DNA of 64,000 nt from Stramonita haemastoma (taxonomy: Eukaryota; Mollusca; Gastropoda; Neogastropoda; Muricidae), in the NCBI GenBank assembly GCA_030674155.1, contig CM060334.1, forward strand, positions 18,939,014 to 19,003,013. The letters run 5' to 3'. Below the pieces are notes generated by a model. The model saw only the letters and a program-made list of their open reading frames with translations. It had not been told where the DNA came from and did not search any database. Below, in pieces: positions 7,489 to 20,988 of this stretch. The translations under genes and the position numbers were made by a program. Numbering within the stretch: position 1 is the first letter of the stretch; each line of letters begins with the position of its first letter.

Positions 7489-7617
7489 ATGACAGTAGAG
7501 GTCAAGCTGACCTTTCTGAAGATCAATGACATCGACACCCTCAGTCAGCAGTTTGAAGCTGAAGTGTATGTGCAGACCAAGTGGGAGGAACCGGCCTTCA
7601 AGGGCGTCAACGCTAAG
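7489..7617 (+). CDS. Channel exon: start of ligand-binding domain
   Basis: Acceptor TTGCAG at 7488 and donor AAG then GTTTGG at 7617/7618; 43 codons, phase 0 at both ends. Encodes EVKLTFLKINDIDTLSQQFE and a YVQTKWEEP segment, matching strand beta-1 and the W-x-[DE]-P region of the family. The in-frame ATG at the first codon could start translation only if this were a first exon; the acceptor argues for upstream exons. Confidence 0.85.
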
Positions 7618-19600: not shown

Positions 19601-20988
19601 GATCAAATATGCATGTTAAAGATCCTGTAATTGATGTCAGCGCTTGGTGGGTTACAAAAATATGAACATACACAGCATTATCCTCAAAAGTCAGAATGTG
19701 GCAACCTTCATGGTGGGCAAAGAAATAGTTGCATACACAAAATCTCTCTGTTGGTGAACCTAGAGCTCTAGCCAAGGAACAGAACAAAAATTTAAATGTA
19801 GTACAAATGGAAATAAAACAGTCAGAGAACTTTTCTTTTTTTTCTTACTTGTAGTAAAATTAATGATGTCCCATTTTGTGTAAGGTTTACTTCATTCTTC
19901 TTTGTAATATTCATTCACCTGTCTACTTCTCTCAATTAGGGGAGGGGGTGGGCATTACTTTTTGTGAATGAAGCATCAAACCCAAGGCTTTCTTGAGGCT
20001 GCCTCTTCCCCCTAATGTATATATACGCTCGCATACAGATCAAATATGCAGGTTAAAATTCCTGCACTTTCTGTCATCATCTGAAAGGCTTGAGGCTATC
20101 ATGCATGCATGCCGTGTTCTGCTAGGTGTGTTTGTGTATGCAGTAGTTGGGAATCCACAAGGTATAGTTTTGGGTAGTTGCGGTACAGTGTTTTGGAACA
20201 GCTCTCGCCCCCGAAAATGAAACTGGGACTTATTTATTTATGAAGAGCTAATTTTTATTTAACAGTCATTTTCACTGAAATTAAGTGCTGGGTGTTGGGG
20301 GGGGTTGTTTTTTTCCTGAATCATTTTAATGGAATAGAAAGTGTAGTTTGTTTTCCCAAGAAATTTTTAACTCTTTAATAAGAAGGCAGGTGGCAGGACG
20401 GTCAAGATGTTTACCTGCCTAACAAGTAAACTGTGAGGTTCTTGGATTGATTCCAAGCCTTGCCCTTATGTTTCCAATTTAACAAAAAATTGAAGTGAAC
20501 GTCAAAGTCCTTCGGATGAGGCTGTAAACCCAAGGCCCTGTGTGCAATTGTATGCGGAATGTTTTGTGCACATGTTAAAAATCTGTATCGTAGGATGGGG
20601 TTTTTTTAAAGATTGCATGCACACGTGTATCTTTAGACACCATCTCTGATGTTGGAATGCAGCTAATTAATTGATGATTGGGGGGGGGGACAGTCACATA
20701 CACAAAAATCTCACAATTGGTGAACCTCAGAGCCCTAGCCAAGGAACGAATAAAAACTCTGTAATGACTCTTTAGCAGTGATAAATTTTGCTTTTTTGTT
20801 GCTTACTGTGAATTTTTTTCTTTTGTACATGTATGTAAATATGCTGCTGTTTGTGTATACGTTTTCTTCAGTCAGTGTGTGAAGGGAAAATTATTAATTT
20901 TTGCCCTCCTTCTCTCTCATGGCAGATACAAGCACGAGCCTTGGCACGGAAATTCGGAAATCCAAAGAAAGGTGGCAAGTCCAAGTAG
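7489..20988 (+). CDS. Prokaryote-like, Cys-less pentameric ligand-gated ion channel (eight visible exons)
   Basis: Joined exons 7489-7617, 12843-13046, 14030-14128, 15109-15264, 16737-16889, 17279-17464, 18869-18916 and 20926-20988 give 345 codons ending in TAG. Every intron is phase 0 and GT-AG. The ligand-binding domain is residues 1-180, with the turn FPFDVQ at about 106-111. M1 (GYFVWNIVFIVFLVLM) follows, then the M2 entrance PDRLATTMTLFLTMVAF, the linker LPTISYLTYLD, M3, a loop of roughly 15-20 residues, and M4. Compared with animal Cys-loop receptors, Lys and Leu stand where the two loop cysteines would be. Architecture and length are closer to bacterial channels such as ELIC. Acidic Asp at the -1' position suggests cation conduction, but Pro at -2' is typical of anion channels, so selectivity is open. 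The ligand is unknown. Neither the true N-terminus nor a signal peptide is established. No frameshift is seen. Confidence 0.88.
7653..7719 (+). repeat. GT tract directly downstream of a channel exon
   Basis: Pure GT repeat beginning about 35 bp after the donor at 7618, in the sense orientation. Confidence 0.95.
8979..9268. repeat. Compound CA-CT-CA microsatellite
   Basis: CA tract 8979-9073, CT tract 9090-9178, CA tract 9178-9268. The CT-to-CA junction has the same order and orientation as at 10178-10374 and 12550-12715. Lies in the first visible intron of the channel gene. Confidence 0.95.
9939..10481. mobile_element. MITE-like element with inverted subterminal repeats, inserted in a SINE
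   Basis: The left end carries about three copies of GGAAAAAAAGTCACA (9948-9990). The right end carries about four copies in inverted orientation (10416-10471). TTTAAC flanks both sides (9933-9938 and 10482-10487) and is a candidate 6-bp target duplication. The interior has about 190 bp of unique sequence and a CT/CA microsatellite, with no open frame. The family is unknown to me; it would be a non-autonomous DNA element if the duplication holds. Confidence 0.5.
10178..10374. repeat. Compound CT-CA microsatellite
   Basis: CT tract 10178-10291 followed by CA tract 10293-10373, inside the inserted element at 9939-10481. Confidence 0.95.
10650..10790 (-). mobile_element. SINE (family B), internally deleted
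   Basis: The tail (complement of GCACATGAGTGCTTATCCC, about 10664-10682) is joined directly to the A-box region (complement of AGCCTAGTGGTCAGAACATT, about 10765-10784). The middle of the element is missing. A GT microsatellite (10783-10856) follows. Confidence 0.7.
11108..11164 (+). CDS. Candidate alternative first exon of the channel gene (signal-anchor-like leader)
   Basis: ATG in a strong context (GTGCCATGG) opens 19 codons reading MANVYNSELLAFIFVIILM, followed at once by a consensus donor GTAAGT (11165-11170) in phase 0. The next known channel exon (12843) starts in phase 0, so splicing would be in frame. The hydrophobic stretch could be a signal peptide or anchor. Used as a first exon, it would replace the exon at 7489 and remove beta-1. 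It could also be a spurious ATG-donor pair or belong to an unseen gene. Confidence 0.4.
11597..11890 (+). mobile_element. tRNA-derived SINE (family B)
   Basis: A box ATAGCCTGGTGGTTAGAG (about 11606), B box CAGTTCGAATCTCC (about 11643), body GGATTTTTCCTCTGG, and tail AGCACATGAGTGCATTACC ending in AAATAAAAG. Lies in the channel intron 7618-12842. Confidence 0.8.
12550..12715. repeat. Compound CT-CA microsatellite upstream of a channel exon
   Basis: CT tract 12555-12656 followed by CA tract 12657-12715. It ends about 127 bp before the acceptor of the exon at 12843, so it contributes pyrimidine-rich intron sequence. Confidence 0.95.
12843..13046 (+). CDS. Channel exon: ligand-binding domain core and FPFD turn
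   Basis: Acceptor CAACACAG at 12842 and donor CAG then GTAGGT at 13046/13047; 68 codons. Encodes LLPGDLWDPHLIVLN (the conserved lWxP..N segment), RWRFKG, and LRYFPFDVQ. The Lys seven residues before FPFD occupies the site of the first Cys-loop cysteine. Confidence 0.92.
14030..14128 (+). CDS. Channel exon: strand after the FPFD turn
   Basis: Acceptor GTGCCAG and donor CAG then GTTAGT; 33 codons starting DLTIQLSTERSYEEIKM. Leu follows Asp where the second Cys-loop cysteine would stand. Confidence 0.9.
14333..14645 (-). mobile_element. Two SINE fragments
   Basis: 14333-14410 is a family-B fragment (GGATTTAGTGAGCGTGCAGG). 14500-14645 is an inverted copy of the element at 19430-19790: its minus-strand head reads GCTATAGCCAAGTGGTTAAG. 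Both lie in the channel intron 14129-15108. Confidence 0.65.
15109..15264 (+). CDS. Channel exon: end of ligand-binding domain and start of M1
   Basis: Acceptor GCTTGCAG and donor GTG then GTACGC; 52 codons. Includes IYNHVQCDYRNTTVEYAS, RVRRRVGYFVWNIVFIV. The run RVRRRVGYF corresponds to the pre-M1 basic region that couples ligand binding to the gate. Confidence 0.92.
15300..15715 (-). mobile_element. SINE fragments in the M1 intron
   Basis: 15300-15400 has the tail CCAATGGTGAGATTTTGTGT shared with 46380-46400 and 58345-58368. 15540-15715 is a family-B copy whose minus-strand head reads ATAGCCTAGTAGGTAGAG. Confidence 0.65.
16560..16735 (+). repeat. ATCC-rich tandem repeat in a splice-acceptor tract
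   Basis: About three 34-bp units containing CTTCAGAACCTCATCCATC, plus simpler TTCATC/ATCC repeats. They run up to the acceptor GCACAG at 16736 and supply the polypyrimidine tract. Confidence 0.8.
16737..16889 (+). CDS. Channel exon: end of M1, pore-lining M2, M2-M3 linker
   Basis: Acceptor TTGCACAG and donor CTG then GTCAGT; 51 codons. Encodes FLVLMLSLLSVAVEPTTPDR (end of M1 and the M1-M2 turn), the M2 helix ATTMTLFLTMVAF, and LPTISYLTYL. The segment DRLATTMTLFLTMVA resembles the ELIC pore more than nicotinic or GABA-A pores. Confidence 0.95.
16940..17235 (-). mobile_element. SINE (family A) filling most of an intron
   Basis: The minus-strand body includes CTGTAGGAAAAAGCC and the tRNA-like head near 17235-17180 (decayed B box GGGTCCGATTCC). 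The element occupies about 296 of the 389 bases between channel exons 16889 and 17279. Confidence 0.65.
17279..17464 (+). CDS. Channel exon: M3, short loop and M4
   Basis: Acceptor GTGGGCAG and donor ACT then GTGAGT; 62 codons. M3 is YVLGSLMYLVLYAM and M4 is CMFLGAVLTLAHLAFVVHV. They are separated by a short loop including SLGRWMDHELVEAYDEF, versus the usually much longer loop of animal receptors. Confidence 0.93.
18869..18916 (+). CDS. Channel exon: post-M4 tail, first part
   Basis: Acceptor TTTTTCAG and donor GCA then GTGAGT; 16 codons, ALRRHREMSENDRRYA. Short and strongly charged, in frame with both neighbours. Confidence 0.85.
18960..19330 (+). mobile_element. Degenerate SINE with internal duplication
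   Basis: The head AATAACCTGTTAGTTAGGG and the decayed B box CGAGTTCAAACC are followed by a CTTTTTCCTTGGAGTTAAC body. The segment AACTAGGAACCAAGG occurs twice (about 19077 and 19127). Confidence 0.5.
19430..19790 (+). mobile_element. tRNA-derived SINE (family D)
   Basis: A box GCTATAGCCCAGTGGTTAAG (about 19432), B box GTGAGTTCAAAT (about 19489), body CCAGGTAAACCTTAAGTGC, and tail ACACAAAATCTCTCTGTTGG then CTAGCCAAGGAAC. The tail is shared with 20690-20760 and 48575-48640 and, in inverse, with 46355-46540 and 58315-58440. Confidence 0.65.
20389..20765 (+). mobile_element. tRNA-derived SINE, mixed family
   Basis: The head GGCAGGACGGTCAAGATG and B-box-like TTGGATTGATTCC are followed by AAGTCCTTCGGATGAGGCTG and a tail ACACAAAAATCTCACAATTG at 20700-20719. 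It lies in the last channel intron, about 160 bp before the final exon. Confidence 0.6.
20926..20988 (+). CDS. Channel last exon: basic C-terminal tail and stop
   Basis: Acceptor ATGGCAG; 20 codons then TAG (20986-20988). Encodes IQARALARKFGNPKKGGKSK, strongly basic. The likely 3'UTR follows. Confidence 0.85.
   Translation: MQARALARKFGNPKKGGKSK

Follow-up and report, generated by a model that had tools for sequence, protein, structure and literature searches.

A Cys-less pentameric channel subunit of the gastropod Stramonita haemastoma with a probably cytosolic ligand-binding domain

The window analyzed here comprises 64,000 nucleotides of the Stramonita haemastoma genome (assembly GCA_030674155.1, contig CM060334.1, positions 18,939,014 to 19,003,013 of the forward strand). 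A gene of 8 exons was found on its + strand, encoding a product of 467 amino acids, with introns that are all of phase 0 and carry GT/AG ends. The product is a subunit of the Cys-less type of pentameric ligand-gated ion channels (pLGICs), as shown by its homology and by the fold that close relatives are predicted to adopt. The evidence presented below is best read as pointing to a channel inserted in the inverted orientation, with its ligand-binding domain in the cytosol. Exons are listed with their positions in the window; identities refer to the Nucella lapillus protein P0001, and M1 to M4 are the transmembrane helices.

Exon 1, 4495..4884, + strand: hydrophilic N-terminal tail of 130 residues, hydrophobic segment absent, final residues REYDHT
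Exon 2, 7489..7617, + strand: initial strands of the ligand-binding domain; AG/GT flanks, phase 0; located by tblastn with P0001, 82.6% identity
Exon 3, 12843..13046, + strand: ligand-binding domain through FPFDVQ, Lys at the first Cys-loop site; AG/GT, phase 0; 82.6%
Exon 4, 14030..14128, + strand: region downstream of the Pro-loop, with Leu in the second Cys-loop position and Glu in that of loop B; AG/GT, phase 0; 86%
Exon 5, 15109..15261, + strand: loop C hairpin, pre-M1 RRR and start of M1, with one N-x-T sequon and two Cys; AG/GT (donor GTGGTA), phase 0; 96%
Exon 6, 16737..16889, + strand: remainder of M1, M2 and the M2-M3 linker LPTISYLTYL; AG/GT, phase 0; 90% in the matched part
Exon 7, 17279..17464, + strand: M3, short M3-M4 loop and M4; AG/GT, phase 0; 79%
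Exon 8, 18869..18958, + strand: basic tail behind M4 (ALRRHREMSENDRRYAVST...) and stop; AG acceptor preceded by a polypyrimidine tract; corresponds to the C-terminal end of P0001

The initial annotation had described an intron-rich, mollusc-like gene for a Cys-less channel, and its six exons between 7489 and 17464 were confirmed with their AG/GT flanks and phase 0. Both ends of the gene were revised. The ATG at 7489, formerly taken as the start, follows directly 3' of a splice acceptor, and the missing first exon was found at 4495-4884. Upstream of its ATG lies an in-frame stop at 4486 with no further ATG in between, and its donor GTGCGT is in phase 0. The residues REYDH preceding the exon 1 junction are shared with the Littorina (P0003) and Pomacea (P0005) proteins, and P0004 carries REYSH. 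Apart from REYDH, no significant similarity of exon 1 to the other tails was detected (best E 0.016, 8.6 bits, with P0048). The maximal mean hydropathy over 19 residues of this tail was 0.12. At the 3' end, a last exon had been placed at 20926..20988 (+), which matched none of the relatives' tails. It was replaced by 18869-18958 because the C-terminus of Nucella P0001 runs on as ALKRHREMSENDKRYGVRT and the window holds the counterpart ALRRHREMSENDRRYAVST behind a good acceptor. The formerly given translation of 345 residues was not reproduced, the original exons as placed here yielding 328 residues. Residues 1-194 of P0001 itself do not resemble its relatives' tails and may stem from a wrongly joined gene model.

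Pfam assigned the ligand-binding domain PF02931 to the window protein with E 5.6e-12, and the membrane domain PF02932 was matched at E 2.6e-4 with 21.8 bits, below the cut-off of 28.1. Four hydrophobic segments were observed by hydropathy. As annotated initially, FPFDVQ is present without flanking Cys, Lys and Leu taking the two Cys-loop sites. No Cys was found at either site in all 159 Cys-less rows with a residue there, window included; Leu occupies the second site in 154/161 sequences, again including the window, and the first site is mostly Glu (156/161), with Lys in 3/161, the window among them. The M3-M4 loop is indeed short, with about 20-25 residues (25 by hydropathy, compared to a canonical median of 122). 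The likeness to ELIC in the M2-M3 region was also borne out by the linker LPTISYLTYLD, and ELIC gave the best sequence match in the PDB (62 bits), followed by GABA-A beta (~50 bits). A canonical N-terminal signal peptide was not seen in the hydrophilic exon 1 tail, as judged by hydropathy only and with a further upstream exon possible.

Using the window protein as query, 111 proteins were identified at E <=0.001. Closest were Nucella lapillus (85%) and Babylonia areolata (84% identity), both over 95-96% of the query and far beyond chance, followed by Littorina saxatilis (67%) and Pomacea canaliculata (59%). Further mollusc matches showed about 43-57% identity, and a second set, mostly at 33-42%, consisted of other mollusc proteins, one nemertean protein and flatworm proteins. 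A profile search yielded 316 proteins, the best 120 of which added annelids, another brachiopod protein and rotifers. In a tree of 51 rows the gene was placed in mollusc clade A (100/99), nearest to Nucella P0001 (92/70), and outside the normal Cys-loop receptors: 11 canonical rows, all cation-type mollusc receptors with anionic ones absent from the tree, split off with 100/100. ELIC fell among the Cys-less rows, with a very long branch (3.82) that the tree program flagged. The gene is firmly placed in the lophotrochozoan clade of Cys-less pLGICs. Searching the own genome of 2.17 Gb recovered the exons of the gene itself at high identity; in other places on C19 and on C3, exons at 32-41% were matched, some of which may be sister-clade genes.

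Cys-less channels of molluscs, annelids, flatworms, a cnidarian, an echinoderm and others are described in the available parts of Jaiteh, Taly and Henin 2016 (PMC4795631), together with a Cys-less clade that is dominated by Lophotrochozoa and joins protist channels. The gene studied here is of the same kind as these Pro-loop receptors, which have mollusc and flatworm members and Cys-loop sites without Cys. Passages of Johnson 2023 (PMC9874803) add a schistosome Cys-less clade and 182 similar RefSeq proteins. The gene type had been called uncommon; it is indeed Cys-less, ELIC-like and from a mollusc, but not isolated. A Cys-less mollusc channel as such is an already known kind, to which one more member is added. 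Against membership in this clade one could set a secondary loss of the Cys within the anionic Cys-loop clade, after the fashion of the Dirofilaria channel, since Cys-less anionic-clade receptors exist in nematodes according to parts of both papers (PMC4795631, PMC9874803). This is very improbable, as the gene clusters with its Cys-less relatives from several phyla and away from the canonical rows in a tree without anionic receptors, and the PAR/PAK motif before M2 (as defined in sections of PMC9874803) is absent from its product.

The label "prokaryote-like" held for sequence similarity, ELIC being the best PDB match. It did not hold for the ends of the protein: the one bacterial ELIC orthologue considered, from Dickeya undicola, begins with MRILWSCCGLVLLLLGSAAWS, has a signal peptide and stops just after M4. 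ELIC and the window protein are alike in lacking a Cys-loop and in their short M3-M4 loop, while ELIC differs by its signal peptide, the missing tail behind M4 and the lack of introns. A recent acquisition from a bacterium is hardly credible, even with ELIC on the Cys-less side of the tree, in view of eight exons with spliceosomal introns, the nesting of the gene among mollusc orthologues and the length of the ELIC branch. The transfer may instead be ancient, a scenario discussed in the accessible text of Jaiteh 2016 (PMC4795631).

The fold was approached with AlphaFold models of two relatives. For the Ylistrum protein P0014, based on an alignment of 56 relatives, a predicted local distance difference test score (pLDDT) of 85.7 was obtained. 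The model shows a helix in the N-terminal tail (residues 16-48), then a beta sandwich, M1 (259-282), M2 (288-311), M3 (320-345) and a single helix from 351 to 408 formed by M4 and the tail. The Babylonia orthologue P0002 gave the same core (pLDDT 83.9). Such models carry no orientation information. With Foldseek, GABA-A and glycine receptors filled all 50 rows listed for P0014 (E 3.8e-21, template modeling score to target 0.74). These receptors share the fold of the P0014 model. They possess a Cys-loop, a signal peptide and a long cytosolic M3-M4 loop, and are not known to have a C-terminal tail of comparable length.

The N-termini were compared after mapping the domain start in 161 sequences, i.e., 160 database proteins plus the window. 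Signal peptides were judged by hydropathy, with charge counts as a second proxy. Using a 12-mer with a mean Kyte-Doolittle value of at least 1.75 as cutoff, a hydrophobic segment was found anywhere in the tail of only 5 of the 135 sequences that start with Met and have a tail of at least 20 residues, versus 20 of 21 complete canonical controls within the first 45 residues. Restricting the Cys-less count to the first 45 residues gave 7/135, and lowering the threshold to 1.5 gave 13/135 (whole tail) versus 20/21. The 21 controls were kept from 39 matches by requiring the Cys-loop to start at residue 144 or later, a rule chosen after seeing the data; for all 39 rows without that rule, 22 reach 1.75, two of them via transmembrane fragments. 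Segment-free tails span mollusc, annelid, nemertean, flatworm and rotifer sequences. Transcriptome records or contigs <5 kb account for 37 of the 135, and by hand count the segment is absent in 35 of these 37; gene-prediction error is therefore unlikely as a general cause.

Among eight Cys-loop open reading frames fetched from the own genome, signal-peptide-like starts were recognized by eye in four (L001, L003, L004, L006); in the other four the segment is absent or the open frame begins too late. L001-L006 and L008 belong to groups of Cys-loop receptor frames on C10, C15 and C4 that carry nearly the whole ligand-binding domain per exon. These frames are tightly grouped on C15 and C10, and Nucella has similar ones on one contig. 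In P0107, residues 13-61 before the ligand-binding domain showed a weak match to the SAM domain (E 0.0042, 17.8 bits, cut-off 23), a normally cytosolic domain, should the match be real.

Charges next to the membrane were counted with helices set by hydropathy, 26/161 Cys-less and 15/39 canonical rows being unparsed and excluded; the resulting 135 Cys-less rows and the 135 of the N-terminal comparison are different selections from the 161. Lys plus Arg were higher on the ligand-binding side in 133/135 Cys-less sequences versus 1/24 canonical ones. Of the remaining Cys-less rows one was equal and one lower (medians 11 vs 3; window 7 vs 2), while two canonical rows were equal and 21 lower on that side (medians 4 vs 6.5). 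Exceptions were P0027 (equal), P0052 (10 to 11) and the canonical fragment P0194 (8 to 6). Based on the alignment, the ligand-binding side of the window protein has a net charge of +6 and the opposite side one of -6. Counting with alignment borders gave 149/149 Cys-less versus 0/27 canonical rows; long flatworm loops were miscut there, and the hydropathy count was preferred. The available part of Baker 2017 (PMC5525207) sets out the positive-inside rule, along with a corresponding tendency of acidic residues to lie outside. The median length of the tail behind M4 is about 50 residues in Cys-less sequences versus 2 in canonical ones, and a sequon is missing from the ligand-binding domain in 113/161 versus 0/33. 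Inspection by eye showed LxxxFRxLxxTLExNN-type motifs repeatedly in the tails of molluscs, and comparable motifs in those of annelids and rotifers.

From this sequence evidence, the best reading is that the window channel is inverted and exposes its ligand-binding domain to the cytosol, to which we assign a probability of roughly 0.7. Without a signal peptide, the N-terminal tail and the ligand-binding domain would remain cytosolic. Insertion of M1-M4 would expose the short M3-M4 loop on the luminal or outer face of the membrane and place the basic helix behind M4 at the cytosolic face. By analogy, the subunits would assemble in fives around a pore, which a cytosolic ligand docking at the subunit interfaces would open. 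A little less confidently, we extend this orientation to the whole lophotrochozoan Cys-less clade, which would probably constitute an ancient branch of the superfamily sensing cytosolic ligands, with no signal peptide and no use for the disulfide in the reducing cytosol.

Several points weigh against this reading. The topology is deduced from hydropathy and charge counts, the sequences are related by descent so that the counts are not independent trials, and the controls were cation-type mollusc receptors with no anionic set. Parts of Johnson 2023 (PMC9874803) take the ligand-binding domain as extracellular. In the long M3-M4 loops of flatworm members, M4 is preceded by a basic stretch (P0041: 11 to 8), and an abundance of sequons is not clear; shuffling three of these loops to test for sequon enrichment gave p 0.38, 0.017 and 0.20. 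Other observations speak for a conventional topology, with the ligand-binding domain outside and either a signal peptide encoded by an overlooked first exon or an N-terminus carried across by M1. As mild counter-evidence, the window ligand-binding domain has one sequon (NTT), and the two Cys of its loop C hairpin could pair if extracellular. An AG shortly 5' of the exon 1 ATG is a possible acceptor, leaving room for a further upstream exon, and a hydrophobic N-terminal segment does occur in the five relatives P0118, P0117, P0001, P0071 (an alanine run) and P0074. To our knowledge, all pLGICs of known structure have the conventional topology. We consider it doubtful here, though to be reckoned with, as it is opposed by segment-free tails across five groups of animals and in nearly all transcript-sized records, and by the basic flanks before M1 and behind M4 under the positive-inside rule. 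The idea of a conserved beta9-beta10 disulfide as a replacement was considered and rejected, the beta10 Cys being present in 145/161 sequences and the beta9 Cys in only 50/161; the window has both.

No description of signal-peptide loss or inverted topology in Cys-less channels was found in the literature, as covered by titles and abstract starts and with most subscription journals outside. The term "signal peptide" is absent from the main text of Jaiteh 2016 (PMC4795631) as far as available, and from a diatom survey (PMC11085791). In the accessible text of PMC4795631 the topology is treated as conventional and extra C-terminal regions appear solely as alignment trouble; the pattern of tails and signal peptides is added here. 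The absence of a signal peptide in Cys-less channels seems to be the new part.

Ligand site and pore were inspected in the alignment. At the columns which we take to be the loop A Tyr and loop B Trp sites, Glu/Asp occurs in 102/161 sequences at the former (Leu in the window) and Glu in 126/161 at the latter, window included. Because the amine-holding aromatics are missing at loops A and B and Glu stands at loop B, a cationic small molecule or a metal ion may, speculatively, be the ligand. At M2 -1', Asp is found in the window and in 38/39 countable rows among P0001-P0040 plus the window, with Asn in 106/161 overall; Pro occupies -2' of the window. The Asp weakly hints at cation flow. Lys at M2 15', unusual within a transmembrane helix, is present in 153/156 Cys-less rows with a residue there, and in the window it follows Phe 14' in exon 6. 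The flatworm relatives P0041 (Paragonimus) and P0056 (Schistosoma mattheei) are 41-42% identical to the window protein over 75-79%. Like it, schistosome members have an acidic residue near the start of M2; unlike it, the flatworm proteins have a long M3-M4 loop. Sections of PMC9874803 place Glu at -2' in the schistosome members, compared to Pro at -2' and Asp at -1' in the window by the numbering used here; the feature given there for the wider set, "often an acidic residue at -1' or -2'", is found in the window.

Elsewhere in the window, an F-box domain exon was detected at 55402-55812 on the - strand (PF12937, E 1.5e-9), and an open frame of 342 residues at 60744-61769 on the + strand matched DUF3987 (E 1.9e-7, 31 bits, cut-off 27).

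Planarian homologues are said, in a 2018 report by Ross known to us as cited by Johnson 2023, to occur in mechanosensory neurons and to give RNA interference phenotypes. Available parts of a planarian paper (PMC8602322) mention gabrg3L-2, possibly a Cys-less channel as well, in putative mechanosensory neurons. Flatworm members are proposed as drug targets in passages of Johnson 2023 (PMC9874803), and relatives carry database names of GABA, acetylcholine or glycine-type subunits. If the inverted topology is true, tests with externally applied ligands would miss the function of these channels. It would also explain why the disulfide is missing, and would extend the superfamily to receptors of intracellular signals.

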